Assembly (NCBI RefSeq): GCF_001428895.1
Contig: NZ_LMJA01000012.1
Span: 1,313 to 65,312 of the forward strand
Reading direction: 5' to 3'
From: Mycobacterium sp. Root265
Lineage (GTDB): Bacteria > Actinomycetota > Actinomycetes > Mycobacteriales > Mycobacteriaceae
Length of the DNA stretch: 64,000 nt
Part shown: piece by piece, positions 8,232 to 43,542 of the stretch
Layout: the number at the start of each line of letters is the position of its first letter
Position numbering within the stretch: the stretch's first letter is position 1
Translations under genes and position numbers: made by a program
The notes under the pieces: generated by a model
Database searches by the model: none
The model's input: the letters and a program-made list of their open reading frames with translations, nothing else
What the model was told of the DNA's origin: nothing

Positions 8232-8250
8232 TACTGTAAGCTGTTCAGTA
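8232..8250. promoter_or_regulatory. TACTGTAA-type operator, copy 1
   Basis: TACTGTAAGCTGTTCAGTA matches the consensus TACTGTAAnnnTTACAGTA at 14 of 16 defined positions. It lies in the divergent promoter between the mycofactocin SDR operon and the Rieske/isochorismatase/ligase operon, so one protein bound here could control both. Confidence 0.65.
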
Positions 8251-8277
8251 GCAGGTTCGGATCTGGAAGGTGTTCCC

Positions 8278-9285
8278 GTGGAGGTTCCGTTCACCTGGAA
8301 GGTCACCGGCTGGTTCATGATCGGCTGGTCGGCCGAATTCGTCGCCGGCGAGACCCGTCCGTTGCGTTACTTCGGTGAGGACCTGGTGGCCTGGCGCGAT
8401 GAGGACGGCGCGCTGCACCTGATGGAAGCCCATTGCAAGCACCTCGGCGCCCATCTGGGTCACGGCGGCAAGATCGTCGGCGACTGCGTCGAGTGCCCCT
8501 TCCACGGTTGGCGGTGGGGACCCGACGGCACCAACCGCCACATCCCGTACCAGCCCGACAAACCCAACCGCGGCCTGCGGCTGCGGACCTATCCGATCGC
8601 CGAACAGCACGGCTGCGTGTTCATGTGGTTCCAGCCGCACGGCGAGCCCCCGCACTGGGAACTGCCCGATATCTTCGACAAGTTCCCGCAGTTCCCGACC
8701 GATCCCGACGCGTTCTACCGCCCTTACCCCGAGTTCTCCCGGTTCGCCGAGAACGAGCCGGTGCATCCGCAGATCGTGGCCGAGAACGGGCCTGACAGTG
8801 CGCATTTCCGCTATGTGCACCGCGCCACGGTCACCCCGGTCTGCCTGGACTGGAAGGTGGTCGACAACGAGTGGCAGTTCCTCACCGGCTGGCCCGATGC
8901 CCGAAGCGATGATCCCGACAAGATGTCGCTCTACATCCACAGCCACTTCTCCGGACTGGGCTTCGCGATCAGCGCCTTCGAGGGCGCGGCCGAGCACCGG
9001 CTGATCTTCGCCTGCACCCCGGTCGATGACCACGTGTCCAACATGTTCTATTCGATCTGGTGGCCCAAGGTGCCCGGCGACACCTCCGACATCCCACCCG
9101 AGGATGTCCGCAAGCGCGTCGAGAAGCAGTATCTGGTGACGGTCTGGGACGACCTCGACATCTGGCGCTACCAGAAGTACATCGAGCGGCCGTCACTGTC
9201 CAAGATCGACGCGAAACCGTATATGGCCATGCGTAAATGGGCGACACAATTCTATGAAGTCCCGCCGGTCGGCACACCGGTATGA
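8278..9285 (+). CDS. KshA-like Rieske non-heme iron oxygenase
   Basis: A 335-residue oxygenase component of a Rieske monooxygenase. The [2Fe-2S] ligands are Cys53, His55, Cys73 and His76. The mononuclear iron site is ENGPDSAHFRYVH, with Asp173, His176 and His181. Overall it is closest in plan to KshA, the 3-ketosteroid 9-alpha-hydroxylase oxygenase, but substrate identity cannot be claimed. No KshB-like reductase is adjacent, so electrons must come from elsewhere. The start is GTG at 8278 behind GGAAGG; the longer open frame upstream runs through the operator and the opposing SDR gene and is not real. First gene of a three-gene operon. Confidence 0.9.
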   Translation: MEVPFTWKVTGWFMIGWSAEFVAGETRPLRYFGEDLVAWRDEDGALHLMEAHCKHLGAHLGHGGKIVGDCVECPFHGWRWGPDGTNRHIPYQPDKPNRGLRLRTYPIAEQHGCVFMWFQPHGEPPHWELPDIFDKFPQFPTDPDAFYRPYPEFSRFAENEPVHPQIVAENGPDSAHFRYVHRATVTPVCLDWKVVDNEWQFLTGWPDARSDDPDKMSLYIHSHFSGLGFAISAFEGAAEHRLIFACTPVDDHVSNMFYSIWWPKVPGDTSDIPPEDVRKRVEKQYLVTVWDDLDIWRYQKYIERPSLSKIDAKPYMAMRKWATQFYEVPPVGTPV

Positions 9286-9872
9286 CGACAGCGGTCATCA
9301 CCCAGGAACTGCAGGGTGCGGTGGTCGGCCCGAACGCCGGGCTGGCCGTGCTCGCCGACGAGGCCCGACGGGTGGCACTGCCCAATATCGGCCGGCTGCT
9401 GCCTGCGGCGCGCGCCGCAGGCCATCACGTCGTGCACTGCCTGGTGCAGCGCCGGCCCGACGGACTGGGCTCCAATCACAACGCCCGGCTGTTCGCCGCG
9501 GGCAAGCGCGCCGTCGACATCACCCCCGGCAGTGCCGGAGCCACCCTGCTACCCGAATTCGGTCCGGAGCCGGCAGATCTGGTGTTGTCCCGCTGGCATG
9601 GGCTCGGCCCGATGGGCGGCACCGATCTGGATGCGATCCTGCGCAATCTCGGCGTCACCACCATCGTGGCTGTCGGTGTCTCGCTCAACATCGCCATCCC
9701 CAATCTGGTGATGGATGCCGTCAACGCCGGCTACCGGGTGGTGCTCCCCCGGGACGCGGTCGCCGGTGTCCCCGCCGCATACGGCGAGGCCGTCATCGAC
9801 AACAGCCTGGCCCTGCTGGCCACCATCACCACCACCGCAGCACTCATCGAAGACTGGAGCGTCCATGGCTGA
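9282..9872 (+). CDS. Isochorismatase-fold protein with altered triad
   Basis: A 196-residue member of the isochorismatase/cysteine hydrolase fold. Active members use an Asp-Lys-Cys triad. By alignment to the remembered family pattern, the three positions here are Glu9 (TQELQ), Arg104 (LVLSRW) and Ala138 (GVSLNIA), so the nucleophilic cysteine is missing. It may be a non-catalytic partner or use another mechanism. The ATG overlaps the Rieske stop as ATGA, and its end overlaps the ligase start by 8 bp, so all three proteins are made together. Confidence 0.8.
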   Translation: MTTAVITQELQGAVVGPNAGLAVLADEARRVALPNIGRLLPAARAAGHHVVHCLVQRRPDGLGSNHNARLFAAGKRAVDITPGSAGATLLPEFGPEPADLVLSRWHGLGPMGGTDLDAILRNLGVTTIVAVGVSLNIAIPNLVMDAVNAGYRVVLPRDAVAGVPAAYGEAVIDNSLALLATITTTAALIEDWSVHG

Positions 9873-11529
9873 GGTTTCCGCGATGTTCACCGTTTCCGCG
9901 GTGGCCGAGGCCGTCGCCGCGGCAATTCCCGACCGCACGCTGGTGGCCCAGGGTGAGCGACGCTACAGCTACGGCCACATCGTCGAGCGGTCGACCCGGC
10001 TCGCGGCATATCTGCATGCGCAGGGCCTGGGGTGCCACACCGACCGTGACACGCTGGCCGGGCACGAGGTCGGCCAGGACCTGCTCGGCATCTATGCCTA
10101 CAACGGCCCGGAGTTCGTCGAGGGGATGCTCGGCGCGTTCCGGGCCCGGGTGGCGCCGTTCAACGTCAACTACCGCTACGTGAAGAACGAATTGCAGTAT
10201 CTGCTGGCCGATTCCGAGGCGTCGGCGCTGCTGTATCACGCCGCGTTCGCACCGCGGGTGGCCGAGATCCGCGACGAGGTGCCCCATCTCAAGGTGCTCA
10301 TCCAGATCGCCGACGGCTCCGGCAACGAATTGCTCGACGGTGCCGTCGACTACGAGTCGATCGTCACCGCCGAGGCCCCGGCGCCGCCGGTGCAGCCCTC
10401 CCCCGACGATCTCTACGTCCTCTACACCGGCGGCACCACCGGCATGCCCAAGGGCGTGTTGTGGCGCCAGCACGACATTTTCATGACCGCGTTCGGCGGC
10501 CGCAACATGATGACCGGCGAGCGCGCCGGATCGGTCGAGGAGATCGTCGGCCGGGTCACCGAGAACCCCGGCACAAAGCTGCTGATCCTGCCGCCGCTGA
10601 TTCACGGCGCCGCGCAGTGGGCCGCCATGACGGCCATCACCACCGGGCAGACGCTGGTGTTCCCGAGCATCGTCGAACGTTTCGACACCGATGACGTGGT
10701 CCGCACCATCGAGCGTGAGCAGGTGCTGGTGGCCACCGTGGTCGGTGACGCGATGGCCCGCCCGCTGCTGGCCGCCCTCCAGCGCAGCCTGCGCGACGGC
10801 AGTGCGGATGTCTCCAGCCTTGCGGTGGTGGCCAATGGCGGCGCGCAACTCACCCCGTATGTGAAGCAGCAGTTGATCGATGCCAAACCCGGGCTCATCG
10901 TGATCGATGGTGTCGGCTCCTCGGAGACCGGTGCGCAGATGAGCCACATGTCGGCCCCCGGGGCGGTGTCGACCGGCACCTTCAACGCCGGGCCGGACAC
11001 CTGTGTGGTGGCAGAGGATTTCACCGCGATCCTGCCGCCGGCCCACGACGGACTCGGCTGGCTGGCCCAACGCGGCTTCGTGCCGCTCGGTTACAAGGGC
11101 GATGCCGCCAAGACCGCGGCGACGTTCCCGGTGATCGACGGTGTGCGGTTCGCCGTCCCCGGTGACCGGGCCCGGCATCTGGAGAGCGGCGCGGTCGAAC
11201 TGCTCGGCCGGGACTCGGTCACCATCAATTCCGGCGGTGAGAAGATCTTCGCCGAGGAGGTGGAATCGGCCATCGCCTCGCATCCGTCGGTGGCCGACGT
11301 GGTGGTGGCCGGACGGCCCAGCGAGCGGTGGGGCTCCGAGGTGGTCGCGGTCGTCGCGCTCGCCGAGGGCGCACAGGCCGACGCCGAGGAGCTCATCCGG
11401 CATGCCGAAAGTTCCATCGCCCGCTACAAACTGCCCAAGGCGGTGGTGTTCCGCCCCGTGATCGAGCGCAGCCCGGCGGGCAAGGCAGACTACCGGTGGG
11501 CCCGCGAGCAGGCGCTCACCGGTTCCTGA
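9865..11529 (+). CDS. Acyl-CoA synthetase (FadD19-like)
   Basis: A 554-residue ATP-dependent acyl-CoA ligase. It carries the AMP-binding loop YTGGTTGMPKGVLWRQ, the GSSETG motif, the GDRARHLESG hinge region, NSGGEKIF and the C-terminal lysine in SPAGKADYRWA. The TGGTTG form and the GKADYRWA end place it with the mycobacterial FadD17/FadD19 group, which activates steroid-type side-chain acids. A paralogue lies at 26251. Start ATG 9865 inside the end of the preceding gene. Third gene of the Rieske operon; its 3' end overlaps the convergent aldehyde dehydrogenase by 14 bp. Confidence 0.9.
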   Translation: MAEVSAMFTVSAVAEAVAAAIPDRTLVAQGERRYSYGHIVERSTRLAAYLHAQGLGCHTDRDTLAGHEVGQDLLGIYAYNGPEFVEGMLGAFRARVAPFNVNYRYVKNELQYLLADSEASALLYHAAFAPRVAEIRDEVPHLKVLIQIADGSGNELLDGAVDYESIVTAEAPAPPVQPSPDDLYVLYTGGTTGMPKGVLWRQHDIFMTAFGGRNMMTGERAGSVEEIVGRVTENPGTKLLILPPLIHGAAQWAAMTAITTGQTLVFPSIVERFDTDDVVRTIEREQVLVATVVGDAMARPLLAALQRSLRDGSADVSSLAVVANGGAQLTPYVKQQLIDAKPGLIVIDGVGSSETGAQMSHMSAPGAVSTGTFNAGPDTCVVAEDFTAILPPAHDGLGWLAQRGFVPLGYKGDAAKTAATFPVIDGVRFAVPGDRARHLESGAVELLGRDSVTINSGGEKIFAEEVESAIASHPSVADVVVAGRPSERWGSEVVAVVALAEGAQADAEELIRHAESSIARYKLPKAVVFRPVIERSPAGKADYRWAREQALTGS

Positions 11530-12991
11530 GCCGACGCCGGGTACGCCGGCGGGCCATGCTCAGGGTTACATCGGCGTACATCTGCATCCCGCGGCGGAAC
11601 GGCGGTGCCGCTGACCCGGTCATGCTGAACGGCAGATCGGTGCCCACCACCGTGCGCTGATGGCTGAAGGCGTCGAAGCCCGCCTTACCGTGGTAGGCGC
11701 CCATACCGCTGCGACCCACCCCACCGAATGGTGCTGCCGACGGAATCATCTGTGCGGCAAAATCGTTGCGCGCCACCCCACCGCTGCGGGTGTTGCGCAG
11801 AAAGGTGCGAAAGGTCTCGCCGTCCGGGCCGAACCAGTAGGCGACCAGCGGCGCGGGACGCGCGTTGATGTAGTCGATGACCTCGCCGAGCGCCGAGTAA
11901 CCGAGCACCGAGAGCACCGGCCCGAAGATCTCCTCGGAGGCGATGGCCATGTGCTCATCGACACCGCTGACAATGGTCGGCGCAATCTTGCGAGTCACCC
12001 GGTCGGGCAGTGTCTCCCCGGTCGGGACCACCGATTCCACGGTGGCGCCCCGGTCACGGGCGTCGTCGATCAGTCCGACCACGCGGTCGAAGTTGGCCTC
12101 GTTGACACTTGAGCAGTAGTCGTCATTGCCGATGATGCTGGGGAACATGCCCGCCCAGGTCCGGCGGACGGTGTCGATGAACGGCGCGACGCTGTCATCG
12201 GGGACGAACACGTAGTCCGGGCAGACGCAGACCTGGCCGCCATTGACCATGCGGGCCTGGGCGATTCGCGTCGCCGAGCGCTGGATGTCCGCGGTGGGGG
12301 CCACCACGACGGGATTCTTGCCGCCCAGTTCCAGGGTCACCGGGACGAGGTTCTCCGACGCGGCGCGCTGTACCAGCGATCCCACCGACGGGGAGCCGGT
12401 GAAGAAGAGGTGGTCGAACGGCAGCCGGGAGAATTCGGCGGCCACCTCGGGCCCACCGGTGACCACGGCGAGTTCGGTGGCCTCGAAGTACTTCGGGGCC
12501 AGCCTCGCCATCAGTTCCGCTGTGCCCGAGGTGACCTCGGACATCTTGATCATCACCCGGTTGCCGGCGGCGAAGGCCGCCGATGCGGGCAGCACCACGA
12601 GATTGAGCGGGAAGTTCCACGGCCCGATGATGCCGACGACGCCCAGCGGGGACGGTTCGACCTCGGCGCGCAGCCCGGCGACGCGCCCCGCGCGCATCAG
12701 CTTGGTGGCCTTCATCCAGTGCGGTACATGGGCCCTGGTGTGTTCGATGACCGGGATGATGCCGACGACCTCGGTGAACAACGATGCCGCGCGCGACCGG
12801 GTGCCGAAGTCGGCGGCCATCGCGTCGACGAACGCGTCGGTGTTCTCCAGCACCAGCGCCAGCAGCCGGTCGATGCGGTTTCGGCGCAGGGCCACGCTCG
12901 GCGGGCCTGCGGCGATGAACGCCCGCCGCTGACGTTCCAGCAGAGCCCGGGCGTCGACCTCGTGCTCGATGCGCTGGTCGGTTGTGCTCAT
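11516..12991 (-). CDS. Coniferyl-aldehyde-dehydrogenase-like ALDH
   Basis: A 491-residue NAD(P)-dependent aldehyde dehydrogenase of the CalB (coniferyl aldehyde dehydrogenase) and class 3 type. Catalytic Cys255 (GGQVC), general base Glu221 (LELGG) and the cofactor region GPWNFPLN are intact. The basic C-terminal tail (RRRTRRR) is slightly unusual. It should oxidise an aldehyde produced from an alcohol intermediate to an acid ready for CoA activation. ATG at 12991 with GGAGGGAG upstream. Divergent from the P450 gene with a perfect TACTGTAA operator between them. Confidence 0.88.
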   Translation of the reverse strand: MSTTDQRIEHEVDARALLERQRRAFIAAGPPSVALRRNRIDRLLALVLENTDAFVDAMAADFGTRSRAASLFTEVVGIIPVIEHTRAHVPHWMKATKLMRAGRVAGLRAEVEPSPLGVVGIIGPWNFPLNLVVLPASAAFAAGNRVMIKMSEVTSGTAELMARLAPKYFEATELAVVTGGPEVAAEFSRLPFDHLFFTGSPSVGSLVQRAASENLVPVTLELGGKNPVVVAPTADIQRSATRIAQARMVNGGQVCVCPDYVFVPDDSVAPFIDTVRRTWAGMFPSIIGNDDYCSSVNEANFDRVVGLIDDARDRGATVESVVPTGETLPDRVTRKIAPTIVSGVDEHMAIASEEIFGPVLSVLGYSALGEVIDYINARPAPLVAYWFGPDGETFRTFLRNTRSGGVARNDFAAQMIPSAAPFGGVGRSGMGAYHGKAGFDAFSHQRTVVGTDLPFSMTGSAAPPFRRGMQMYADVTLSMARRRTRRRLRNR

Positions 12992-13096
12992 ATCCTGAAC
13001 TCCCTCCGGTAACGCTCACGGTAGCAGCAGCGGTCCGCGGCGGGCGGCAGACCATCGCAGGAGGAAAACGCTATGTTTCGAACGGACGGGACGTGT

Positions 13097-13115
13097 TACT
13101 GTAAGTGTTACAGTA
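13097..13115. promoter_or_regulatory. TACTGTAA-type operator, copy 2 (perfect)
   Basis: TACTGTAAGTGTTACAGTA is a perfect 8-bp inverted repeat around GTG and defines the consensus. It lies between the CalB-like ALDH and the P450-TetR operon. Because the TetR at 14390 is encoded in that operon, this is the likely autoregulatory site. Confidence 0.8.
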
Positions 13116-13151: not shown

Positions 13152-14375
13152 GTGGACAGCCAGACGCAGGACGAGAGCGATCTCTTGGCGGATTTGGGCG
13201 ACACGGTCAACCTGCTCCGCGACCCGTACCCGTTCTTCGCCGCACACCGCGCCCGCCACGGCGTCTTCGCCGGCAGTGTCATGGACTGGTCCAAGACACC
13301 CTACGAGTTCCGGCCCGAGAACCAGTACGCGGCGGTGTCCTATGACGCCGTCAACACCGTCTTCCGGGACAGCAAGTCGTTCAACTCCAAGATCTACGAC
13401 GACACCATCGGGCTGTTCATCGGCCCGTCCATCCTGGCGATGGAAGGCACGCTGCATCGCGCACACCGCAATCTGGTCACCACCGCGTTCAAGGCGAAGT
13501 CACTGAAGCGCTGGGAGCCCGAGATCGTCCGCCCCATCTGCGAACAACTCATCGATGAGTTCATCGAGACCGGACGCGCGGACCTGGTCCGCGACTTCAC
13601 CTTCGAATTCCCGACCCGGGTGATCTCCAAGCTGCTGGGTCTGCCCGAAGAGGATCTCGCCTGGTTCCGCGCCCGGGCCGTCGAGCTGATCAGCTACCAC
13701 GTCAAGTACAAGCGTGCCTTCGAAGCCTCTGCGGCGCTGAAGGACTACTTCGTCAACCAGATCGATCTGCGCCGGTCCTCGCCCACCGATGACATCATCG
13801 GTGATCTGGTGACCGCCGAGGTCGAAGGCGCGAAGCTCACCGACGAAGAGATCTACTCGTTCCTGCGACTGCTGCTGCCGGCCGGCCTGGAGACCACCTT
13901 CCGCTCCTCGGGCAATCTGCTCTACCTGCTGCTGACCCATCCCGATCAGTTCGCCGCGGTGCAGGCCGACCACGAACTCCTCGGCCAGGCGATCGAAGAG
14001 GGCCTGCGCTATGAGACACCGCTGACCACCGTGCAGCGTTCGGCCAGCGTGGCCACCGAACTCGACGGCGTCGAGCTCCCCGCCGGGGCGGTCATCGATG
14101 TGTGCATCGGCGCCGCCAATCGCGACGAGGCCCGCTGGGAACGGGCCGAGAAATTCGACATTTTCCGCAAGCGCGTGCCGCACATCACCTTTGCCGCCGG
14201 CGAGCACACCTGCCTCGGTCTTCACCTGGCCCGGATGGAGACCCGGGTCGCCATCGAATGCCTGCTCGACCGGGTCACCGACCTCGAACTCGACGCCGGC
14301 GCGGACCCCCACATCTTCGGTCAGCCGTTCCGCTCGCCCACGGCCGTACCCGTCACGTTCCGACCGATCACCTGA
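13152..14375 (+). CDS. Cytochrome P450
   Basis: A 407-residue soluble bacterial P450. The oxygen-binding I-helix AGLETT (244-249), ExxR (Glu283-Arg286) and haem loop FAAGEHTCLG with Cys354 are all present. The family number cannot be assigned by eye. Probable role: hydroxylation of the hydrophobic pathway substrate, with ferredoxin and reductase supplied from elsewhere. GTG at 13152 was chosen because AAGGCAGG lies 8 bp upstream; ATG at 13125 gives nine extra residues and has no good site. Followed 14 bp later by a TetR gene. Confidence 0.9.
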   Translation: MDSQTQDESDLLADLGDTVNLLRDPYPFFAAHRARHGVFAGSVMDWSKTPYEFRPENQYAAVSYDAVNTVFRDSKSFNSKIYDDTIGLFIGPSILAMEGTLHRAHRNLVTTAFKAKSLKRWEPEIVRPICEQLIDEFIETGRADLVRDFTFEFPTRVISKLLGLPEEDLAWFRARAVELISYHVKYKRAFEASAALKDYFVNQIDLRRSSPTDDIIGDLVTAEVEGAKLTDEEIYSFLRLLLPAGLETTFRSSGNLLYLLLTHPDQFAAVQADHELLGQAIEEGLRYETPLTTVQRSASVATELDGVELPAGAVIDVCIGAANRDEARWERAEKFDIFRKRVPHITFAAGEHTCLGLHLARMETRVAIECLLDRVTDLELDAGADPHIFGQPFRSPTAVPVTFRPIT

Positions 14376-14389: not shown

Positions 14390-15079
14390 GTGAGCAGACC
14401 CGCAACGAAAAGACAGCGTCGTGAACGCGGGTCCATCAGTGTCGAGGAGATCCTGTCCGGCGCGTTCGACGTCGCCGCCGACGTGTCGATCGACCACCTC
14501 AGCATGCCGCAATTGGCCAAACATCTCGATGTCGGCGTCACCAGCATCTACTGGTATTTCCGCCGCAAGGATGACCTGCTCGACGCGATGACCAACCGGG
14601 CCCTCGACGAGTACGACTTCACCGCACCGAGCATCGATGCGGACAACTGGCGGGAATCGCTGGCACACCACGCGCGGATCATGCGAAAGACATTCCGCGG
14701 CAATCCGATTCTGTGTGATCTGATCCTGATCCGCGGATCCTATGGACGTGCGGCGGTGCAGGGCGCCATCCAGAAGCTCGAGCCGCCGGTGGCCGCCCTG
14801 GTGCGCGCCGGGCTGACCTCCGAGCAGGCCTTCGACACCTACTCGGCGATCGCCACCCATGTGCGCGGCACGGTCATCATGGAACGCCTGCAGGACAAGA
14901 TGCCCGGTATCGCACCGCGCCGGGACGGCGAGCGCAATCTCATCGATCCGGCCGCCACCCCGTTCATCGCCGAGGCCACCGGCCGCGGCCACCGGATGGG
15001 CGTGGCCGACGACATCAACTTCGACTACGTGCTGGAGTGCATCCTCGACCACGCCGAGATGCTGGCGCGTCAACCCTGA
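14390..15079 (+). CDS. TetR regulator, candidate master repressor 1
   Basis: A 229-residue TetR protein with a basic N-terminal tail (KRQRRERGSI) and a helix-turn-helix ending GVTSIYWYFRRKDDLL. It is clearly paralogous to the TetR at 31881; shared blocks include KRQRRERGSI, VGVTSIYWYFR and NPILCDLILIR. GTG at 14390 follows GGAGG. Because it is in the P450 operon, directly downstream of a perfect dyad, it is the best candidate to bind the TACTGTAA sites across the window (inference). Its end overlaps the convergent ALDH by 10 bp. Confidence 0.9.
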   Translation: MSRPATKRQRRERGSISVEEILSGAFDVAADVSIDHLSMPQLAKHLDVGVTSIYWYFRRKDDLLDAMTNRALDEYDFTAPSIDADNWRESLAHHARIMRKTFRGNPILCDLILIRGSYGRAAVQGAIQKLEPPVAALVRAGLTSEQAFDTYSAIATHVRGTVIMERLQDKMPGIAPRRDGERNLIDPAATPFIAEATGRGHRMGVADDINFDYVLECILDHAEMLARQP

Positions 15080-16605
15080 CGGGGCAGGCGCCACCCGATG
15101 GTCTTGGTCTCGGTGTACTGGGCGAAACCCTCGATACCGCACTGCCGGCCGACGCCGCTGTTCTTGAAACCGCCGAACGGTGCGTCGGCGCCGTAGTACA
15201 TGCCGCCGTTGACGCCGATGGCACCGGTCCGGATCCGCCGGGCGACGCCCATCGCGCGTTCCGGGGACTTGGACAACACCGCACCGGCCAGTCCGAAGGC
15301 GCTGTCGTTGGCCAGCCGCACCGCGTCGTCGTCATCGTCGAACGGGATGAGCACCAGCACCGGACCGAACACCTCGTCCTGCGCGATGGATGATCCCGGG
15401 TCCGCCCCCAGGATCACCGTCGGCGCCACGAAATGCCCGTTGGCCAGGTGGTCGGGCAGCCCGTCGGGTACGCCGCCACCGACGACGATCTCGGCGCCGT
15501 CACGTCGAGCACCCTCGATGGCGTCGAGCACCCGCTGCTTCTGCGCCGCGCTGATCAGTGGCCCCACCAGGGTGGTCGGAAGCGCCGGGTCACCCACGGG
15601 TACCCCGCCGAAGGCCATCGTCACATTGGCGACGGCCTCGTCGAACAGACTGCGGTGCACCAGCATCCGGGTGTTCGCCGCGCAGGCCTGCCCGGCGTGC
15701 ACGCAGGCGCCGATCGCGCCGGGGATGATGTGCGCCGGGTTGGCGTCGTCGAGGACGATCATCGCGGACTTGCCGCCCAGTTCGAGGAAGGTGCGCTTCA
15801 TGGTGTCGGCGCCGACCCGCATCAGGTGCCTGCCCACCGCGGTGGACCCGGTGAACGACACCATGTCGACGCGGGGGTCGGTGCCGAGCAGCCCGGCCAC
15901 CTCATTGGACGGGGTGGGCACCACGTTGATCACCCCGGCCGGAATGTCGGTGCGCTCGGCGATGAGGCGCCCGAGCCGGGTGGCGTTCCACGGGGTGTTC
16001 GGATCCGGCTTGAGCACCACGGTGTTGCCGGCCGCCAGCGCCGGGCCGAGCTTGTTGAGGATGACCTCGATGGGGAAGTTGGAGGGCGTGATGGCGGCGA
16101 CGACGCCGACGGCCTCCTTGACCACGGTGCGCGCGTTGCGCTCACCGAACAGGCCGCCACCGTCGAGGCGCCGTTCCCATTCGAACTCGTCGATCAGCCG
16201 GGCCGGGTAGCGCAGCGCGTCGGCGAGGGGCCAGTCGAGTTGCGCGTTCTGCGTCGTCATCGCCGGGCAGCCGACCTCGGCGATCAGTTCCTCACGCAGC
16301 TCTTCGGTTTCGGCTTCGATGGCGTCCTGCAACTGGAGCAGTGCTCGCTGCCGCAGTGCGCGGTTGGTGGACCAGTCGGTGCCATCGAAGGCGCGCCGGG
16401 CCGCGCCGATGGCGCGATCCATATCCTCGGGACCGGCGGCCGAGGTGCTGCCGAGCAGCAAACCTGTTGCCGGGCTGAGATTGTCGAACGCCGCACCGGA
16501 GGCCGCGGCGGTCAGCTCACCGTCGATGAGCATCCGCATCTCGGCGCGGTCCGCCGCGCGGCGCCCGATGTCGACACTCGACGCATCCGCCACCACCTCA
16601 CTCAC
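15070..16605 (-). CDS. NAD-dependent aldehyde dehydrogenase
   Basis: A 511-residue ALDH. Cys308 (GQAC) is the nucleophile, Glu275 (LELGG) the base, with TPSNFP and FTGSTAVG for cofactor binding. It is not closely similar to the CalB-like enzyme at 11516, so the pathway has two distinct aldehyde or semialdehyde steps. GTG at 16605 follows GGGAGG. Its promoter holds TACTGTAA copy 3. Confidence 0.9.
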   Translation of the reverse strand: MSEVVADASSVDIGRRAADRAEMRMLIDGELTAAASGAAFDNLSPATGLLLGSTSAAGPEDMDRAIGAARRAFDGTDWSTNRALRQRALLQLQDAIEAETEELREELIAEVGCPAMTTQNAQLDWPLADALRYPARLIDEFEWERRLDGGGLFGERNARTVVKEAVGVVAAITPSNFPIEVILNKLGPALAAGNTVVLKPDPNTPWNATRLGRLIAERTDIPAGVINVVPTPSNEVAGLLGTDPRVDMVSFTGSTAVGRHLMRVGADTMKRTFLELGGKSAMIVLDDANPAHIIPGAIGACVHAGQACAANTRMLVHRSLFDEAVANVTMAFGGVPVGDPALPTTLVGPLISAAQKQRVLDAIEGARRDGAEIVVGGGVPDGLPDHLANGHFVAPTVILGADPGSSIAQDEVFGPVLVLIPFDDDDDAVRLANDSAFGLAGAVLSKSPERAMGVARRIRTGAIGVNGGMYYGADAPFGGFKNSGVGRQCGIEGFAQYTETKTIGWRLPRQG

Positions 16606-16632: not shown

Positions 16633-16651
16633 AACAGTAAACGTTACAGTA
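16633..16651. promoter_or_regulatory. TACTGTAA-type operator, copy 3
   Basis: AACAGTAAACGTTACAGTA matches at 14 of 16 positions. It lies 28 bp upstream of the ALDH start at 16605 and immediately after the stop of the molybdopterin gene, so it can only serve the ALDH. Confidence 0.65.
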
Positions 16652-16653
16652 TC

Positions 16654-33861: not shown

Positions 33862-33873
33862 GTTTATGTAAAC
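33862..33873. promoter_or_regulatory. Short dyad in the thiolase promoter
   Basis: GTTTATGTAAAC has perfect 5-bp arms around TG, 26 bp upstream of the thiolase start. The regulator is unknown; the dyad is short, so chance symmetry is possible. Confidence 0.3.
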
Positions 33874-33909
33874 GTAGCACCCACTGTAGGCGCTCCGTTG
33901 TGCGGTTGG

Positions 33910-35580: not shown

Positions 35581-35599
35581 TACTGTATGGGCAACTGTA
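35581..35599. promoter_or_regulatory. TACTGTAA-type operator, copy 7 (degenerate)
   Basis: TACTGTATGGGCAACTGTA matches at 12 of 16 positions. It lies 26 bp upstream of the first crotonase of the six-gene rightward operon and 14 bp after the FadR-type dyad, suggesting dual control. Confidence 0.45.
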
Positions 35600-36419: not shown

Positions 36420-36427
36420 AAGGAATC

Positions 36428-37231
36428 ATGAGCTACGACACGATCACCTATGACGTCGACGGCCACAAGGCCACCATCACCATGAACCGGCCCGACGCGC
36501 TCAACGCGTTGTCACCGCACATGATCACCGAACTGCGGGCGGCCTATCAGCAGGCCGAGGACGATAACAACGTGTGGCTGATGATCGTCACCGCCAATGG
36601 GCGGGCGTTCTGCACCGGCGCCGATGTCAAGGAGATCCCCGGCGACGGCAAGGTGCTCAACGAACGCCCATACCTGTCCACCTACGAACAGTGGGAGGCC
36701 CCACAGGAGGGCACCCCGCCGTTTCGGACCATGACCAAACCCGTCATCGTCGCCGTCAACGGAATCTGTTGCGGTGCAGGGCTGGACTGGGTGACCACCG
36801 GGGATATCGTCATCGCCTCGGACAAGGCCACCTTCTTCGACCCGCATGTCAGCATCGGCCTGGTCGCCGCCCGGGAGATGGTGCGCCTGGCCAAGGCGCT
36901 GCCCCGGTCGGTCGCCCTGCGGATGGCGCTGATGGGCAAGCACGAGCGGATGACAGTGCAACGCGCCTACGAACTCGGGTTGATCACCGAGATCGTCGAG
37001 CACGACAAACTGCTGGAGCGCGCGCACGAGATTGCCGACACCGTGAATCTCAATGCGCCGCTGGCGGTACGGGGTACCCGGCTCGCCATCCACAAGACCC
37101 TGGACCTGCCGTTGCACGAGGGTGAGATCCTGGCCGAGACGTTCCGGGAACGGGTCACCCGCACCGAGGATGCGCTGGAGGGGCCGCGCGCGTTCGTGGA
37201 GAAGCGCAAGCCCAACTGGCAGGCCCGGTAG
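36428..37231 (+). CDS. Enoyl-CoA hydratase family protein, second of three
   Basis: A 267-residue crotonase with FCTGADVKEIP and NGICCGAGLDWV. The catalytic loop FFDPHVSIGLVAAREM places Asp where hydratases have Glu. The next gene has a similar FFDSHVS loop, so these two are close paralogues. Nine bases separate it from the first crotonase gene. Confidence 0.87.
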   Translation: MSYDTITYDVDGHKATITMNRPDALNALSPHMITELRAAYQQAEDDNNVWLMIVTANGRAFCTGADVKEIPGDGKVLNERPYLSTYEQWEAPQEGTPPFRTMTKPVIVAVNGICCGAGLDWVTTGDIVIASDKATFFDPHVSIGLVAAREMVRLAKALPRSVALRMALMGKHERMTVQRAYELGLITEIVEHDKLLERAHEIADTVNLNAPLAVRGTRLAIHKTLDLPLHEGEILAETFRERVTRTEDALEGPRAFVEKRKPNWQAR

Positions 37232-37233
37232 TC

Positions 37234-38010
37234 ATGGCAGCCACCATCCTGCTCGATTTCGACCACCACACGCACGTCGCCACCATCACGCTCAACCGCC
37301 CCGACGCGCTGAACTCGTTCAACCGCGCCATGTGCCACGAGATGCGCGATGCCTGGCACACCATCAAGGACGACGAGGGCATCAACGCCGTGGTGCTGCG
37401 CGCCGCCGGTGACCGCGCCTTCAGCGCGGGACTGGACGTCAAATCCAGCTATGGACAACCCGGGATCGTGTGGAACCACGAGGATCCGGGCGAGCTGCTC
37501 AGCCCCAAATGGCAGAAGATGTGGAAGCCGGTGGTCTGCGCGGTACAGGGCATGTGCACCGCGGGAGCGTTGTACTTCGTCAACGAGTCCGATGTGGTGA
37601 TCTGCTCACAGGAGGCCACCTTCTTCGACTCCCATGTCAGTGCCGGGCTGGTGTCAGCGCTGGAGCCGATCGGGCTGATGCGCCGGGTCGGTCTCGGGGA
37701 CACCCTGCGGATGGCGTTGATGGGCAACGACGAGCGCGTCGGCGCCGACACCGCGCTGCGGATCGGACTGGTCACCGAGGTGGTGTCCCGAGACGCACTG
37801 TGGAGCCGGGCCGAGGAGATCGCCACCGCCATCGCCGCGAAACCACCGACCGCGACCCAGGGCACCGTCAAGGCCATCTGGGAGTCACTGGACAAACCGT
37901 ACCGGGCCGCGATGGACCACGGACTGATCTACACCCGGCTGGGCAACCCGATCGCCAAGGATGAGCTCGCCGCACGACCGATCCCCAAGACGCCGCCACG
38001 GATCCGTTGA
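37234..38010 (+). CDS. Enoyl-CoA hydratase family protein, third of three
   Basis: A 258-residue crotonase, paralogous to the preceding one (FFDSHVSAGLVSALEP versus FFDPHVSIGLVAAREM). Oxyanion blocks AFSAGLDVKSS and GMCTAGALYFV. The C-terminal helix is longer and proline-rich (PIPKTPPRIR). It starts two bases after the previous gene and overlaps the first ligase by one base (TGATG). The two paralogues could be subunits of a mixed crotonase (speculative). Confidence 0.87.
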   Translation: MAATILLDFDHHTHVATITLNRPDALNSFNRAMCHEMRDAWHTIKDDEGINAVVLRAAGDRAFSAGLDVKSSYGQPGIVWNHEDPGELLSPKWQKMWKPVVCAVQGMCTAGALYFVNESDVVICSQEATFFDSHVSAGLVSALEPIGLMRRVGLGDTLRMALMGNDERVGADTALRIGLVTEVVSRDALWSRAEEIATAIAAKPPTATQGTVKAIWESLDKPYRAAMDHGLIYTRLGNPIAKDELAARPIPKTPPRIR

Positions 38011-39443
38011 TGTCCCATCCGCTTTCGCGACGCATCAGCACCGTACTGGACCTGGATCCGTCGGCGCCGGCGCTGCAGTACGACGGCCAGTGGTCCAGCT
38101 GGGGGCAACTCGCCACCCTGGCGCGGCGCATCGGCGCGCTCACCGGCCCCGTCCGGGTCGGGATCATGCTGCGCAATCAGCCCGCCCACGTCGCCGCCCT
38201 GCTCGGCGTGCTGGAGACCGGCGGCACCGTCGTGGTCATCAACCCGTCCCGCGGCGATGACCGCACCCGCGCCGATATCGCCGCACTCGGGCTGCCGGTC
38301 CTCATCGGGCTGGACGACGACATCGCCAACCTGGTGACACCGTCGGTCACCGGCACGGTGATCACCATCTCCGATCTCCACACCGCCCCGACGGAGTTGT
38401 TGGGCACCACCATCGATGACGCCCGCCGCCCCGGCGTCGCGGTGTGGATGTTGACCAGCGGGACCACCGGACCACCGAAGCGCGTCGACCTCACCTACGA
38501 CATGCTGGCCCGCAGCGTGCTGGGACAGCTGCCGTGGCACGAACCCACCGAGCTGCGGCGCGGGGTGGCGATAGTGAACTCCCCGCTGGTGCACGTCGGC
38601 GGGGTGTTCCGGATCCTGCTGTGTATCAGCGAAGCCCGGTCATTCGTGCTGCTCCCCAAGTTCGACCTGCAGCGCTGGGCCGACGCCGTGCGTGAGCACA
38701 CACCGCGCGCGGTCTCTCTGGTGCCGGCGGCGCTGCGGATGGTGCTGCACTCCGAACTCACCCGTGAGGATCTCGCCGGCGTGCGTGCGGTCACCTCCGG
38801 GACCGCCCCGTTGTCCGCCGACGATGCCGACGCCTTCACCGCGAAGTTCGGCATACCGGTCCTGACCTCTTATGCGGCCACCGAATTCGGCGGCGGGGTG
38901 GCCGGTTGGACGCTGGCCGACCATCAGCAGTACTGGCAGGCCAAGCGTGGCAGCGTGGGCCGGGCGAATCCCGGTGCGCAGTTACGGGTGGTCGACGAGG
39001 CGGGGCGCGTCCTCGGCCCGGACGAGCACGGGTTGTTGGAAGTCATTCCTGCCCAGATGTCTTCCAGGGACTGGATCCGCACCACCGACCTCGCGCGCAT
39101 CGACGCCGACGGGTTCGTGTGGATCTTGGGCCGCGCCGATCAGGCCATCATCCGAGGTGGCTTCAAGGTGATGCCCGACGATGTGCGCACCGCCCTGGAG
39201 AGCCACCCCGCGGTACGCGGCGCGGCGGTGATCGGCCGGGCCGATGAGCGCCTCGGCGAGACCCCGGTCGCGATGGTCGAACTGCACGGTCAGGCCTCCG
39301 CCGAAGAGTTGGCGGAGTACCTCGGCGCTCGACTGGCCCGTTACGAAATCCCCACCGACATCGCCATCGTCGAGGTGATACCGCGCACCCCGTCCGGCAA
39401 GGCCGATCTCGGGGCGGTACGAGAGCATTTCGCCGGCTCATGA
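38010..39443 (+). CDS. AMP-dependent acyl-CoA ligase, first of three
   Basis: A 477-residue ligase, shorter than classical FadD proteins. Loop LTSGTTGPPKRVDLTY (the usual glycine after PPK is Arg), YAATEFGGG, the TTDLARIDADG hinge and the C-terminal lysine PSGKADLG are present. The altered loop may lower activity or change specificity. Start ATG 38010 overlapping the crotonase stop. Its AMP-forming reaction would activate a carboxylic acid before the crotonases act. Confidence 0.88.
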   Translation: MSHPLSRRISTVLDLDPSAPALQYDGQWSSWGQLATLARRIGALTGPVRVGIMLRNQPAHVAALLGVLETGGTVVVINPSRGDDRTRADIAALGLPVLIGLDDDIANLVTPSVTGTVITISDLHTAPTELLGTTIDDARRPGVAVWMLTSGTTGPPKRVDLTYDMLARSVLGQLPWHEPTELRRGVAIVNSPLVHVGGVFRILLCISEARSFVLLPKFDLQRWADAVREHTPRAVSLVPAALRMVLHSELTREDLAGVRAVTSGTAPLSADDADAFTAKFGIPVLTSYAATEFGGGVAGWTLADHQQYWQAKRGSVGRANPGAQLRVVDEAGRVLGPDEHGLLEVIPAQMSSRDWIRTTDLARIDADGFVWILGRADQAIIRGGFKVMPDDVRTALESHPAVRGAAVIGRADERLGETPVAMVELHGQASAEELAEYLGARLARYEIPTDIAIVEVIPRTPSGKADLGAVREHFAGS

Positions 39444-40879
39444 TTGGGTCGCTTGTCGACCTGATCCGCCGCCGGGCGGATCACGTCCTGCTGATCTGCG
39501 ACGACGAACGACTCACCTATGCCGCGGCGGACCTGCGATCCACGGAACTCGCGCGTGGCCTCGTCGGGCTGGGTGCCGGGAAGGGCACCCACGTCGGGCT
39601 GCTGTACCCCAACGGCGCCGCCTTCGTGGTCGGGATGCTGGCCGCCGCGCGCATCGGTGCGGTAGTGGTGCCGTTCTCCACTTTCCAGACCGCCGCGGAG
39701 TTGACGACCCAGCTGATCGACAGTGACACCGAGATCCTCTTGGCGGCAGCATCGTTCCGCCAGCACGACTATCGGCAGCTGTTGGCCGGCATCGATGCGC
39801 CATGCCTGCGCCATGTGCTCTTCGACCCGCCGTCGGCGGCCGAACCCGACCTGACCGGGCTGCAAGCTGACGTCGACGGCTCCGATCCACTGGCGATCAT
39901 CTACACCTCCGGGTCGACCGGCCCACCCAAGGGCGCGGTGCACACCCACGCCGGGTTGCTCGGGCATCAGCGCAATCTCAACGAGATCCGCGGGCTGACG
40001 GCCTCGGACACCTTGTTCTGCAATTCGCCGTTCTTCTGGATCGGCGGCTTCGCGTTCGGGCTGCTCGCCACCATCGTCGCCGGGTCCACGTTGGTCTGCT
40101 CGAATGCCAGCGATGCGGGCGAAACCCTGGATCTGTTGGAGGCGGTGCGCCCCAACGTCACCAACGGCTTTGCGGCGGGTATCGCGCATCTGACCCGTCA
40201 CCCCAGCTTCGCCGACCGGGACCTGTCCGCGCTGCGACGCGGCAATCTGTACCCGATCATGGCGCCGGACGTCCGGCCGTCCGATCCCGAGTTGCGGCAC
40301 AACATGCTGGGGATGACCGAGGCCGGCAGTGTGCTGCTGATCGACGGTGACGAGTCCGATCAGCCCGAGCACCGGCGCGGTAGCTTCGGCCGTCCCGCAC
40401 CGGGTTTCGACACCAAGGTGCTCGCCACCGGTGAGCTCTGTATCCGCGGGCCGTACGTCATGCAGGGCTACTACGGACGCAGCCGCGAGGACTGCTTCGA
40501 CGCCGACGGCTGGTTTCACACCGGCGATCTGGTGCGTGTCGACGCGGACGGCTACTTCTATTACCTGACCCGCGCCGGTTCGATGATCAAGACCTCCGGA
40601 GCCAATGTCACGCCCGGCGAGGTGCAGAAAGCCCTCGCGGCGCAGGGATTCGTCGCCCATGTGCTGGGTCTGCCCGACGCGCAGCGCGGACAGATCGTGG
40701 CCGCCGTGATCGTCAGTGACGGTCCGGTCGACACCGAGGCGCTCCGCCGGGGCTTGCGGGAGACGCTGTCGTCCTACAAGGTGCCCAGACGGTTCCTCAC
40801 GTGCCGCCCCGCCGATGTCCCGATGTTGTCCAGCGGGAAAATCGACATGCCCGCGTTGGCGAGGCTCTTCGATGACTGA
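39440..40879 (+). CDS. AMP-dependent acyl-CoA ligase, second of three
   Basis: A 479-residue ligase with the standard loop YTSGSTGPPKGAVHTH, LGMTEAGS, the HTGDLVRVDADG hinge and the SSGKIDMP lysine. It overlaps the preceding gene by ATGA and the following by 8 bp. All catalytic positions look intact. More similar to the third ligase than to the first by eye. Confidence 0.89.
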   Translation: MIGSLVDLIRRRADHVLLICDDERLTYAAADLRSTELARGLVGLGAGKGTHVGLLYPNGAAFVVGMLAAARIGAVVVPFSTFQTAAELTTQLIDSDTEILLAAASFRQHDYRQLLAGIDAPCLRHVLFDPPSAAEPDLTGLQADVDGSDPLAIIYTSGSTGPPKGAVHTHAGLLGHQRNLNEIRGLTASDTLFCNSPFFWIGGFAFGLLATIVAGSTLVCSNASDAGETLDLLEAVRPNVTNGFAAGIAHLTRHPSFADRDLSALRRGNLYPIMAPDVRPSDPELRHNMLGMTEAGSVLLIDGDESDQPEHRRGSFGRPAPGFDTKVLATGELCIRGPYVMQGYYGRSREDCFDADGWFHTGDLVRVDADGYFYYLTRAGSMIKTSGANVTPGEVQKALAAQGFVAHVLGLPDAQRGQIVAAVIVSDGPVDTEALRRGLRETLSSYKVPRRFLTCRPADVPMLSSGKIDMPALARLFDD

Positions 40880-42332
40880 CACCATCGACGGACTGATCCG
40901 CGCGCGGGCCGCCGAGAGCAAGCCGATGGTGATCGACCCGGACACCCGGATCAGTTACAGCGAGCTCGCCACGAGCACCGCCGCGTTGGGCGCCGGCCTG
41001 CTCGCCGCCGGAATCGTCAAGGGCACCCGGGTCGGGCTGATCATGCCCAACAGCGCTGACTGGGTGCGGATCGCGCTGGCCGTCACCCGGATCGGCGCGG
41101 TGCTGGTGCCACTGAGCACACTACTCACCACATCGGAGGTCACCGCACAGCTGCGTACGGCGTCGGTCCAGCATCTTATCGCCGTCGAGGAGTTCCGCGG
41201 CCGCCGCTACACACCGGATCCGGTGCCATCCCTGCGCCGGGTCTGGACGCCGAGCGAGGTGCTGGCATTGCGCGGCGCCGCGGCGTTCCCACCCGTGCGG
41301 CCCGCCGACCCGTTGGTCATCATGTTCACCTCGGGCAGCAGCGGGCCGCCGAAGGGGGTTCTGCATTCCCACGGCAGTGCGCTGGCCGCGGTGCGTTCCG
41401 GGCTGGACGCACGCCTCATCACCGAGGACACCCGGCTGTATCTGCCGATGCCGTTCTTCTGGGTGGGTGGTTTCGGGGCCGGGATCCTGTCGGCGCTGCT
41501 GGCGGGCGCCACCCTGGTGACCGAGCCGATCCCGCAGGCCGAGTCGACGCTGGATCTGCTTCGCCGCGAACGGGTCACGCTGTTTCGCGGATGGCCGGAC
41601 CAGGCAGCGGCGCTGGCACGCTATCTGTCGGAGCCGTTACCCGATCTGCGGGTGGGAAGCCTGGAGGCGCTGTTGGCGCCGGAGCTGCGATCGGCATCGG
41701 GTGCGCGCGCCTCACTGTTCGGGATGACCGAATCGTTCGGGCCGTACAGCGGATACCCCGCCGACGCCGATATGCCGCAATCGACTTGGGGCAGTTGCGG
41801 GAAGCCGTTCGCCGGGATGGATGTGCGGATCGCCGATGTCCAGACGGGTGCGCCCATGCCCGCCGGCGAGGTGGGCCAGATCCAGATCCGCGGACCGCAC
41901 GTCCTGCGCGGGATCTGCCGGCGCAGCCGCGAGGAGGTGTTCACCCCGGACGGGTACTACCCCACCGGTGATCTCGGGTTTCTCGATGCGGACGGGTTCC
42001 TGTTCTACCGGGGCCGGTCCGATGACATGTTCAAGGTCAGTGGCGCGACGGTGTACCCCAGCGAGGTGGAACGTGCGCTGCGTGGGATCGCCGGGATACG
42101 GGCGGTGTTCGTGGTCGATGTGGACGGCCGTGTCGCCGCCGCCGTGGTGACGAGTCTGTCCGCCAACGAGTTACGCGCGGCGGCCAAAGAGGTGCTCAGC
42201 GCCTTCAAGGTCCCGACGGTCTGGTTGATCCTGGACAGCGAGGACGCGGTTCCGTTCGGCGCCACCGGCAAGGTCGACAAGCACCGGATCCGCGAGATGA
42301 TCCAGGCGTCAGACGATGGCGCCGGCCCGTAG
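40872..42332 (+). CDS. AMP-dependent acyl-CoA ligase, third of three
   Basis: A 486-residue ligase with FTSGSSGPPKGVLHSH, FGMTESFG, PTGDLGFLDADG and ATGKVDKHR. Start ATG 40872 inside the end of the previous gene; the longer frame upstream is a shadow. Ends the operon and overlaps the convergent CoA-transferase by 24 bp. Three adjacent ligases suggest either several acids in one pathway or a diverging family. Confidence 0.88.
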   Translation: MTDTIDGLIRARAAESKPMVIDPDTRISYSELATSTAALGAGLLAAGIVKGTRVGLIMPNSADWVRIALAVTRIGAVLVPLSTLLTTSEVTAQLRTASVQHLIAVEEFRGRRYTPDPVPSLRRVWTPSEVLALRGAAAFPPVRPADPLVIMFTSGSSGPPKGVLHSHGSALAAVRSGLDARLITEDTRLYLPMPFFWVGGFGAGILSALLAGATLVTEPIPQAESTLDLLRRERVTLFRGWPDQAAALARYLSEPLPDLRVGSLEALLAPELRSASGARASLFGMTESFGPYSGYPADADMPQSTWGSCGKPFAGMDVRIADVQTGAPMPAGEVGQIQIRGPHVLRGICRRSREEVFTPDGYYPTGDLGFLDADGFLFYRGRSDDMFKVSGATVYPSEVERALRGIAGIRAVFVVDVDGRVAAAVVTSLSANELRAAAKEVLSAFKVPTVWLILDSEDAVPFGATGKVDKHRIREMIQASDDGAGP

Positions 42333-43496
42333 CCCGGCGATCTGCGCTGCGTCATAACCGATCTCACCGAGCACCGCATCGGTGTGCTCGCCGAGCAGTG
42401 GCGCCCGATGCCGGATGCTGCCGGGGGTCGCCGACATGCGGAACGGGGTCTCGATGATCGGCACGTCGCGGGAGGCGCCGGGAAAGGGCACCCGCTTCAG
42501 GTAACCCATGGCCTGGATGTGCGGATCGTCGAGCACCTCCTGGGTGGAGTACAGCGGCGCGGCAGGCATCTTGGCCTGCTCCAGTAGTTCGAGGACCTCC
42601 GCCTTGGTCTTGTCGGCACACCACTGCGACATGATGTCGTTGAGGACATCGCCGTTCTCCCAGCGGATGTCGTCATTGGCGAAACGCGGGTCGTCGAACA
42701 GTTCTTCTCGGCCCATGAGACGGCACCATCGTTTGAACATGGGTTGTCCAGCCACCTGCAGCAGCACCCATTCGTTGTCGGCGGTGCGGTACAGGTCGCA
42801 GGGCGCGACCGACGCGCCCCGGTTGCCCATGCGCGGCTTGTCCGTCTGCAGCAGTTCTCGCTCGATGAGAAAGGCGTTGGACAGCATCAGCGCTGTCGGC
42901 AGCAGGGCGCCCTCGACGTGCTGGCCCTCGCCGGTGCGATCACGGTGGTAGAGCGCCATCATGACGCCGATCGTCAGGGTGAGGGCGGTGCCGAAATCGG
43001 TGTAGGGCACCACCGTTCGGATGGGCTGCTCGGGTAGCCCCTGCCGGTACACCGCCCCGGACATGACCTGTCCCGCGCCGTCGAAGCCAACTTTGTTGCT
43101 GTACGGGCCGCCCTCGCCGTACGCGGTGGCGCTGGCCAGGATGATGTCCGGCTTGACGGCGCGCAGGGTGTCATAGTCCAGACCGCTCGCCCGCATCCCG
43201 GCGGCCGGCATATTGGCGACGACGATATCGGCCCGTGCCACCAGGCGGCGGGTGATCTCCGCCCCCTCAGCGGTGGTGGAATCCAATGTCAGCGAACGCT
43301 TGTTGCGGTTGCACTGCAGGAAGGTGCCGCCCTCACCGCCGTCGGTGACCGCCTGAACCCAACGGTCCTCGCCGCCCTCCCGTTTCTCCACCCGCAGGAC
43401 GTCGGCGCCCATATCGGCCAGGATGGCGCTGCACCACGGCGCGGCGATGAATCGGCCGTAATCGAGGACCCGTATCCCGTCGAGGACGCCTGGCAT
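42309..43496 (-). CDS. CaiB/BaiF family CoA-transferase
   Basis: A 395-residue class III CoA-transferase, which moves CoA between acids without ATP. N-terminal GIRVLDYGRFIAAPWCS, the catalytic Asp in VVPYTDFG and the LGEHTDAVLGEIGY end are typical. It could recycle CoA from an end product onto a new substrate acid, avoiding ligase cost. ATG at 43496 was preferred over a GTG four codons earlier. Its promoter has TACTGTAA copy 8. Confidence 0.9.
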   Translation of the reverse strand: MPGVLDGIRVLDYGRFIAAPWCSAILADMGADVLRVEKREGGEDRWVQAVTDGGEGGTFLQCNRNKRSLTLDSTTAEGAEITRRLVARADIVVANMPAAGMRASGLDYDTLRAVKPDIILASATAYGEGGPYSNKVGFDGAGQVMSGAVYRQGLPEQPIRTVVPYTDFGTALTLTIGVMMALYHRDRTGEGQHVEGALLPTALMLSNAFLIERELLQTDKPRMGNRGASVAPCDLYRTADNEWVLLQVAGQPMFKRWCRLMGREELFDDPRFANDDIRWENGDVLNDIMSQWCADKTKAEVLELLEQAKMPAAPLYSTQEVLDDPHIQAMGYLKRVPFPGASRDVPIIETPFRMSATPGSIRHRAPLLGEHTDAVLGEIGYDAAQIAGLRAGAIV

Positions 43497-43523
43497 GACT
43501 GGACCCACCTTCGTCGAGTATCC

Positions 43524-43542
43524 GACTGTAAGTATTACAGTA
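43524..43542. promoter_or_regulatory. TACTGTAA-type operator, copy 8
   Basis: GACTGTAAGTATTACAGTA matches at 15 of 16 positions. It lies 28 bp upstream of the CaiB start, beyond the 3' end of the broken HNH gene. It is the rightmost copy seen, marking the edge of the putative regulon. Confidence 0.75.

Follow-up and report, generated by a model that had tools for sequence, protein, structure and literature searches.

The 64,000-nucleotide stretch of Mycobacterium sp. Root265 analyzed here (the window; part of contig C12 of the 6.67 Mb genome, G000) holds a catabolic island in whose promoters a 19-bp palindrome, the dyad TACTGTAAnnnTTACAGTA, recurs, together with the genes of two TetR-family regulators, g31 (TetR-A) and g15 (TetR-B). 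The island encodes a cytochrome P450, a KshA-like Rieske oxygenase, aldehyde dehydrogenases, ligases, paired acyl-CoA dehydrogenases, crotonases, thiolases and an OB-fold/thiolase pair (Table 1). The dyads mark a real and widespread TetR regulon, in which TetR-A is the predicted DNA-binding regulator. Throughout, dyad matches were scored out of 16 letters, and genes were called with our own codon-usage script rather than taken from an annotation.

Dyad sites in the window and across the genome

Nine sites in the window score at least 12/16, against a mean of 0.03 and a maximum of 1 in 100 shuffles, and six matches at up to three mismatches compare with 0.00 in 100 dinucleotide shuffles; these comparisons rule out a chance or compositional origin of the window dyads. 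An earlier note on this DNA had reported eight copies, all of which were recovered with exactly the coordinates and scores it gave, although its count was incomplete, a ninth copy at 13005 (12/16) having been overlooked. It had also placed the copies in promoters and found none in the rest of the window, and both observations hold: every site precedes one or two start codons, and nothing at or above 12/16 lies beyond 8.2-43.6 kb. Sites 16633, 29988 and 43524 face a gene end on their opposite side. The overlooked site shares the intergenic region of g13 and g14 with site 13097, and this region likewise contains two sites in the loci L086 and L098.

Several of these operators have counterparts elsewhere. 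Sites corresponding to O1 precede g10 and/or its divergent neighbors in other genomes, the counterpart of O2 scores 15-16/16 before the P450 gene in 9/9 genus genomes with fetched regions and 15/16 in G381 and G167, which belong to another genus, and counterparts of O8 are found in L095 and L097.

Table 1. Dyad sites, regulators and enzymes of the island (window coordinates; operator scores out of 16 letters)
Feature	Position	Strand	Description
O1 (14/16)	8232..8250	.	between divergent g09 (short-chain dehydrogenase/reductase, SDR, -) and g10 (+)
g10	8278..9285	+	KshA-like Rieske oxygenase, 335 aa; Pfam Rieske + KshA_C
g11, g12	9282..11529	+	isochorismatase-like; acyl-CoA synthetase (PRK07798)
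g13	11516..12991	-	aldehyde dehydrogenase
O2b (12/16)	13005..13023	.	closely upstream of g13 (-)
O2 (16/16)	13097..13115	.	upstream of g14 P450 - g15 TetR-B
g14	13152..14375	+	cytochrome P450
g15, TetR-B	14390..15079	+	optional paralogue; encoded after the P450, in the unit behind the perfect dyad
g16	15070..16605	-	aldehyde dehydrogenase
O3 (14/16)	16633..16651	.	upstream of g16 (-)
g17	16654..18849	-	molybdopterin oxidoreductase, formate-dehydrogenase-like
O4 (15/16)	18893..18911	.	between g17 (-) and g18-g19-g20 (+)
g18, g19	18948..20515	+	ChsH2-type OB/zinc ribbon; thiolase-like
g20	20602..21834	+	Amidohydro_2; dinuclear-oxygenase ligand set (DQH, H, E, SDYPHPE)
g23, g24	23155..25409	-	paired acyl-CoA dehydrogenases
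g25	25412..26221	-	Amidohydro_2 without the C-terminal histidine ligand (SDYPVLR)
g26	26251..27867	-	acyl-CoA synthetase (PRK07798)
g27	27876..29123	-	Amidohydro_2; dinuclear-oxygenase ligand set; close relative of PDB 4dzi
g28	29137..29958	-	enoyl-CoA hydratase (ECH)
O5 (12/16)	29988..30006	.	upstream of g28 and the g28-g23 operon (-)
g29, g30	30060..31663	-	SDR; crotonase
O6 (13/16, TACTATA variant)	31715..31733	.	between g30 (-) and g31 TetR-A (+)
g31, TetR-A	31881..32627	+	TetR_N + TetR_C_1; most likely dyad reader by co-occurrence
g32, g33, g34	32660..35533	-	thiolase; crotonase; GntR/FCD regulator
O7 (12/16)	35581..35599	.	between g34 (GntR, -) and the g35-g40 operon (+)
g35-g40	35625..42332	+	three crotonases, three AMP-dependent ligases
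g41	42309..43496	-	CaiB-type CoA transferase
O8 (15/16)	43524..43542	.	upstream of g41 (-)

The start of g18 was set by eye at 18948 (script: 18915) because of a better ribosome-binding site there. Two further features adjoin dyads. Next to g34, the GntR gene, a separate palindrome, CTTGTACAAG, occupies 35554-35563; it is some 18 bp away from dyad 35581 and is a likely candidate for the GntR operator. A gene for a DUF222 protein (43560-44729), whose C-terminus we read as HNH-like, adjoins the last dyad and occupies the same place in G034 and G096.

Genome-wide, nine palindromic places match the dyad at up to three mismatches (one with 0, two with 1, three with 2 and three with 3), with six falling inside the window, compared with eight places for the reversed control pattern (one with 1 and seven with 3); at up to two mismatches, there are thus 6 dyads against 1 control. 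The earlier note had named many equally good matches in coding DNA genome-wide as one outcome that would speak against a single regulon. All nine places are intergenic, and the matches at up to two mismatches are not scattered through coding DNA. The sole strong place outside the window, C27:14365, precedes a P450 gene (L179) whose product shares 62-63% identity with P450s of G020 and G049; these too have a 15/16 dyad outside the island, more than 2 Mb off in G020 and on another contig in G049. Together, the off-island dyad-bearing P450s of the three genomes make up one family of 62-87% identity, and a same-family P450 in G006 has a 15/16 dyad in front within the island region. One P450 family therefore bears the dyad in differing surroundings, and the regulon extends beyond the 35 kb to which it had been confined in the earlier note.

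Weaker matches were also followed. When the pattern was relaxed to TACTRTAWNNNWWWCNGTA to capture the weak class, it matched three places in the genome, each inside the window, and its control matched one. The place C28:131312, with three mismatches and outside the window, gained no support. The weak dyad TACTGAATTGCTTACTGTA at G000:C4:2673-2691 (L180) and L084:3041 is letter-identical in two genomes. In L180 it is flanked by a carboxyltransferase gene and a unit of luciferase-like monooxygenase, SDR and P450 genes, and the identical copy in G049 is near a P450 83% identical to the C4 P450; this dyad may be real. The single one-mismatch match of the reversed control, ATGACATAGGCAATGTCAT at G000:C12:239032-239050 (L245), is possibly the operator of another regulator, and the control also occurs once each at up to one mismatch in G103 and G129.

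Conservation of the dyad and its association with TetR-A

The distribution of the dyad was compared with that of TetR-A in 148 genomes of the genus, a near-perfect dyad being one with at most one mismatch and TetR-A being scored as present when the best match reached at least 65% identity. A protein search with TetR-A at E 1e-40 matched 118/148 genomes, 10 of which were identified by elimination. Five genomes (G050, G055, G088, G092 and G147) contain a weaker homologue only (E 3e-41 to 2e-60; 46-47% identical in four of the five, the value for G055 not being among them) and were counted as lacking TetR-A; none has a site at up to one mismatch. Near-perfect dyads occur in 96/148 genomes and the reversed control in 3/148. 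They are present in 95/113 genomes with TetR-A versus 1/35 without (Fisher 4e-19, ignoring kinship). Across 55 TetR-A loci from the genus and order searches, the best site scores at least 13/16 in 51 and at least 12/16 in 54. Moreover, the island order is largely the same in the fetched regions of nine genomes, with sites at the same promoters, and TetR-A is common to these nine islands, lying beyond the fetched stretch in G085. The closest TetR-A among the relatives listed, at 98% identity, is that of Mycolicibacterium sp. P9-22.

The second regulator is dispensable for this association. Thirteen genomes combine three or more near-perfect dyads with a single TetR match. In the ten that we chose for a recheck, a TetR-B search at E 1e-15 returned a single family member, TetR-A, in 10/10, and the three left out (G004, G028 and G085) keep dyads of 15-16/16 with no TetR-B in the island. 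Because single-TetR genomes keep their dyads without a second family member, TetR-A suffices and TetR-B is an optional paralogue. The earlier note had described two TetRs at 14390 and 31881 with almost identical recognition helices. Both are encoded there, at 55% identity to each other, and share the stretch VGVTSIYWYFR, which we take as the recognition helix; their TetR_N and TetR_C_1 scores are 40.4 and 30.1 bits for g15 and 49.7 and 44.8 bits for g31 (gathering thresholds 24 and 21). Genomic association supports the single regulon proposed there, with operators in promoters and a TetR of this family as reader, but not the role of the two TetRs as equal partners, since TetR-A is conserved and enough alone, whereas TetR-B is missing from dyad-keeping genomes. 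As the recognition-helix stretch is common to both proteins, both may bind the dyad, and TetR-B probably reads the same one as TetR-A.

Conservation was further assessed promoter by promoter in 80 named loci, i.e. those of TetR-A relatives named Mycobacterium, Mycolicibacterium or Mycolicibacter, by scoring the upstream stretch of each relative (threshold at least 12/16; mononucleotide shuffles). The threshold is reached by the promoters of TetR-A (O6) in 74/79 loci, ECH-2 in 38/40, ECH-1 (site 29988, O5) in 71/73 and ECH-4 (site 35581, O7) in 58/68, as well as upstream of the GntR gene, which shares its promoter with ECH-4, in 17/30, of the SDR gene g29 in 33/69 and of the CaiB gene (O8) in 3/6. 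Operon-internal stretches upstream of g23-g26 reach it in 0/63, 0/40, 0/13 and 0/66 loci and those upstream of g36-g40 in 0/58, 0/20, 0/60, 0/18 and 0/16; the remaining counts are 2/51 for g27, 2/17 for g33 and 11/43 for g32. The weak sites retain letters of their own, e.g. TACTGTATACCTATCGGTA and TACTGTATGGGCAACTGTA, and sites 29988 and 35581 are real, given their promoter-wise conservation. In a set of 123 loci, 181 of the 182 sites at or above 13/16 are centered between genes, the intergenic share of the DNA being 9.1%, and site centers lie a median of 54.5 bp from the nearest start codon; these loci overlap in part (L097 and L099 lie on one chromosome, L082 and L115 on one contig), so the 182 sites are not all independent. 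In both the 148 genus genomes and the 123 loci, the spacer varies and the half-sites are kept.

The association reaches beyond the genus. An order-wide search at E 1e-40 matched 38/298 genomes, mostly of the same genus. Three genomes from two other genera of the family encode TetR-A homologues of 61-66% identity, two of them in two copies, and contain 12 sites at or above 12/16 versus 0.20 expected and 8 at or above 13/16 versus 0.05 (60 shuffles), located before relatives of the P450, crotonase (ECH), thiolase and FadD genes. In G224, of a further genus, a 14/16 site lies between a 42-44% homologue and the next gene. Of two more distant homologues (36-39%), one has two 12/16 sites at its locus and the other has none.

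Proposed repression by TetR-A and competing readings

These observations make it very probable that the dyad is the operator of TetR-A, which would repress the island operons until released by a ligand. A ligand-free TetR-A dimer would occupy the 19-bp palindromes, which mostly lie 30-140 bp before start codons, thereby shutting off transcription of tetR-A as well as of the catabolic operons, and a pathway compound, or a CoA ester of it, would free the protein from DNA. Two classes of copy could then act as graded sites: near-perfect ones stand before the P450, aldehyde dehydrogenase, molybdoenzyme, aldolase/thiolase and CoA-transferase units, and imperfect but conserved ones before tetR-A/ECH and the g28-g23 and g35-g40 operons.

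Several points weigh against this proposal. Repression is deduced solely from the position of the sites. Before TetR-A/ECH-2 and ECH-4, some flanking letters are conserved too, and conservation in these promoters thus extends past the dyad. In the genome itself, the dyad count at three mismatches (3) is no higher than the control count (7), and three-mismatch places outside the window are therefore not above chance by count. Among genus genomes with TetR-A, 18/113 have no dyad at up to one mismatch (four of them, G012, G023, G029 and G140, examined at the TetR locus, have a 13-14/16 site in 4/4), and a single 15/16 dyad is found in G115, which lacks the TetR; the nearest called genes are at least about 900 bp away on one flank and 1 kb on the other. 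In the two genomes of another genus that carry two TetR copies, the stretches adjoining the TetR genes upstream score 9-10/16 at best. Class C homologues (46-47%), which have the same recognition helix, show no dyad at or above 12/16 in 20 kb (L184-L186), so the presence of the dyad cannot be predicted from the helix by itself. In L183, where the homologue (43% identity) has an altered helix, VPLTSIYWHFR, there are two 12/16 sites (at 8373 and 16216), one of them separating a KshA-like Rieske gene from an Amidohydro_2-like one, and this locus perhaps represents a sister regulon with a shifted operator; pooled, L183-L186 hold two 12/16 sites versus 0.10 expected, both in L183.

Other readers of the dyad can be considered. 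TetR-B might be the main reader of the near-perfect copies, leaving to TetR-A the imperfect ones near its own gene: the best site (16/16) precedes the P450-tetR-B unit, and by inspection genomes with TetR-B seem to have more sites at up to one mismatch. Yet the thirteen single-TetR genomes retain their near-perfect dyads, G004, G028 and G085 among them, and the recognition helix is common to both proteins, which leaves this division of labor improbable. We give even less credence to a reading by another island regulator, the TetR g04, the LysR g21 or the GntR g34, all of which were set aside on locus content in the fetched regions. Although g04 and g34 are present at the locus in several genomes and O7 adjoins g34, g21 has no match in 20 fetched regions (nine genomes), g04 is missing between its neighbors in G065 and G081, and g34 is not within the fetched stretches of G020 and G049, with dyads kept in each case; g34, moreover, has the separate CTTGTACAAG palindrome beside it.

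The palindrome could also be no operator at all. Promoter -10 elements follow the pattern TANNNT, which TACTGT fits. TACTGT stands on both strands of the dyad and several sites lie in divergent promoters, as would suit back-to-back -10 elements; but the dyad is tied to one TetR across genomes, also precedes the single units g16, g28 and g41, and is not found genome-wide as a general promoter element would be, making this the least credible of the readings. Finally, the dyad might be the published motif X of an Rv0767c-type regulator. In the cited part of PMC6593523, motif X is a palindrome adjoining 14 operons of a phytosterol-grown Mycobacterium, standing before phytosterol-induced P450, aldehyde dehydrogenase and TetR genes and tied to an Rv0767c orthologue; the predicted Rv0767c motif is given as a logo only in the cited part of PMC4482099, and the corresponding text of PMC10312376 contains no operator letters. 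The sole Rv0768 equivalog over the cut-off in our genome lies at C13:3437-4873, whereas the g16 aldehyde dehydrogenase, at 612 bits, falls below that cut-off (775). From the Rv0767c-Rv0768 neighborhood, we take the TetR beside this equivalog (L208:5146-5706), which is neither g15 nor g31, to be the Rv0767c orthologue. It has a different recognition helix and no dyad at or above 11/16 in 16 kb, and its promoter contains TGGACATGTGTCCA (L208:5088-5101, G000:C13), a candidate for motif X itself. The dyad is therefore probably distinct from motif X, the comparison being with the promoter of the orthologue and not with the letters of the published logo, and we regard identity of the two as very unlikely.

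Island enzymes, pathway and comparison with known systems

The proposed TetR-A regulon includes two proteins, g20 and g27, that belong to PF04909 and are amidohydrolases by annotation. Aligned to PtmU3, both keep the DxH, H, E, DxxH and acidic positions, and thus the six metal ligands plus an acidic residue two after the last histidine (positions as named for AibH2 in the cited part of PMC7782822). The motifs DxH and SD[WY]PHx[DE] occur in 80/80 and 79/80 relatives of g27 and in 9/9 and 9/9 of g20, compared with 0/77 and 0/77 of g25 (loci partly overlapping), and g27 matches PDB 4dzi at E 6e-213. Proteins with such ligands are defined in the cited part of PMC10811679 as amidohydrolase-related dinuclear oxygenases, a small Rieske ferredoxin in the same unit being a search criterion there. 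Like PtmU3, AibH2 and SfbO, g20 and g27 retain the ligand positions; they are distant from PtmU3 in sequence (E 6e-12 and 3e-15), and the 33 called genes g09-g41 of the island include no small Rieske ferredoxin, g10 being of the oxygenase type. Their residues suggest that g20 and g27 are likely dinuclear oxygenases. Since PtmU3, an enzyme of diterpenoid biosynthesis, takes CoA-ligated substrates (PMC7782822, in the part cited), a cyclic isoprenoid- or steroid-like substrate is plausible by analogy. Our guess for the island as a whole is a pathway for oxidation and CoA-linked breakdown of such a compound; PDB searches with the P450s named no substrate, and a literature search for DitZ gave nothing on the enzyme among the matches listed.

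Taken together, and more speculatively, we suggest an undescribed regulon in about three quarters of the sampled mycobacterial genomes (TetR-A in 113/148), in which TetR-A might sense a CoA-linked cyclic isoprenoid- or steroid-like intermediate, g20 and g27 might serve as dinuclear metal oxygenases beside the P450 and Rieske oxygenases, and imperfect operators might be maintained by selection, giving the repressor, the core operons and the peripheral operons different ligand thresholds; we hold this full picture only tentatively. The regulon offers a testable list of operator, regulator and targets for an island whose regulator is common in the genus. The TetR-A ligand, once found, would point to the pathway substrate, and the regulon flags two widespread 'amidohydrolases' as likely oxygenases, one of which closely resembles a protein of known structure (4dzi).

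Among the publications listed by literature searches, none deals with the TetR-A regulator or the dyad in its title or abstract, and a text search with the half-site letters TACTGTAA gave nothing related among the matches listed. The proposed system nevertheless resembles several known ones. With Rv0767c and motif X it shares a TetR-type regulator and a palindrome in catabolic promoters with P450, aldehyde dehydrogenase and TetR genes (PMC6593523 and PMC4482099, in the parts cited), but the Rv0767c orthologue is a different gene, distinguished by its own recognition helix and by a TGGACAnnTGTCCA palindrome. Elsewhere in the window, the TetR gene g60 (62704-63270, +), whose product is 39% identical to that orthologue, has TGGACACATGTCCA in its promoter (62682-62695) and TGGACACTTGTC further upstream, at 62540, probably constituting a second, separate TetR operator system. 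KstR and KstR2 of cholesterol catabolism are likewise TetR repressors over mycobacterial catabolic operons (PMC6593523, in the part cited), but the families matched by g15 (3) and g31 (5) at E 0.001 do not include the KstR model NF033703. The MftR2 model NF038211 scores 37.7 and 41.8 bits for g15 and g31, below its cut-off of 285. The TetR-TetO pair offers a further parallel, TetO being a 19-bp palindrome centered on one base, as is the dyad. Like TetR, both regulators combine TetR_N with TetR_C_1, and the nearest solved sequences of g15 are TetR classes; unlike the TetR of tetracycline resistance, for which the cut-off is 265 bits, they score 66 and 79 bits, and their predicted targets are catabolic.

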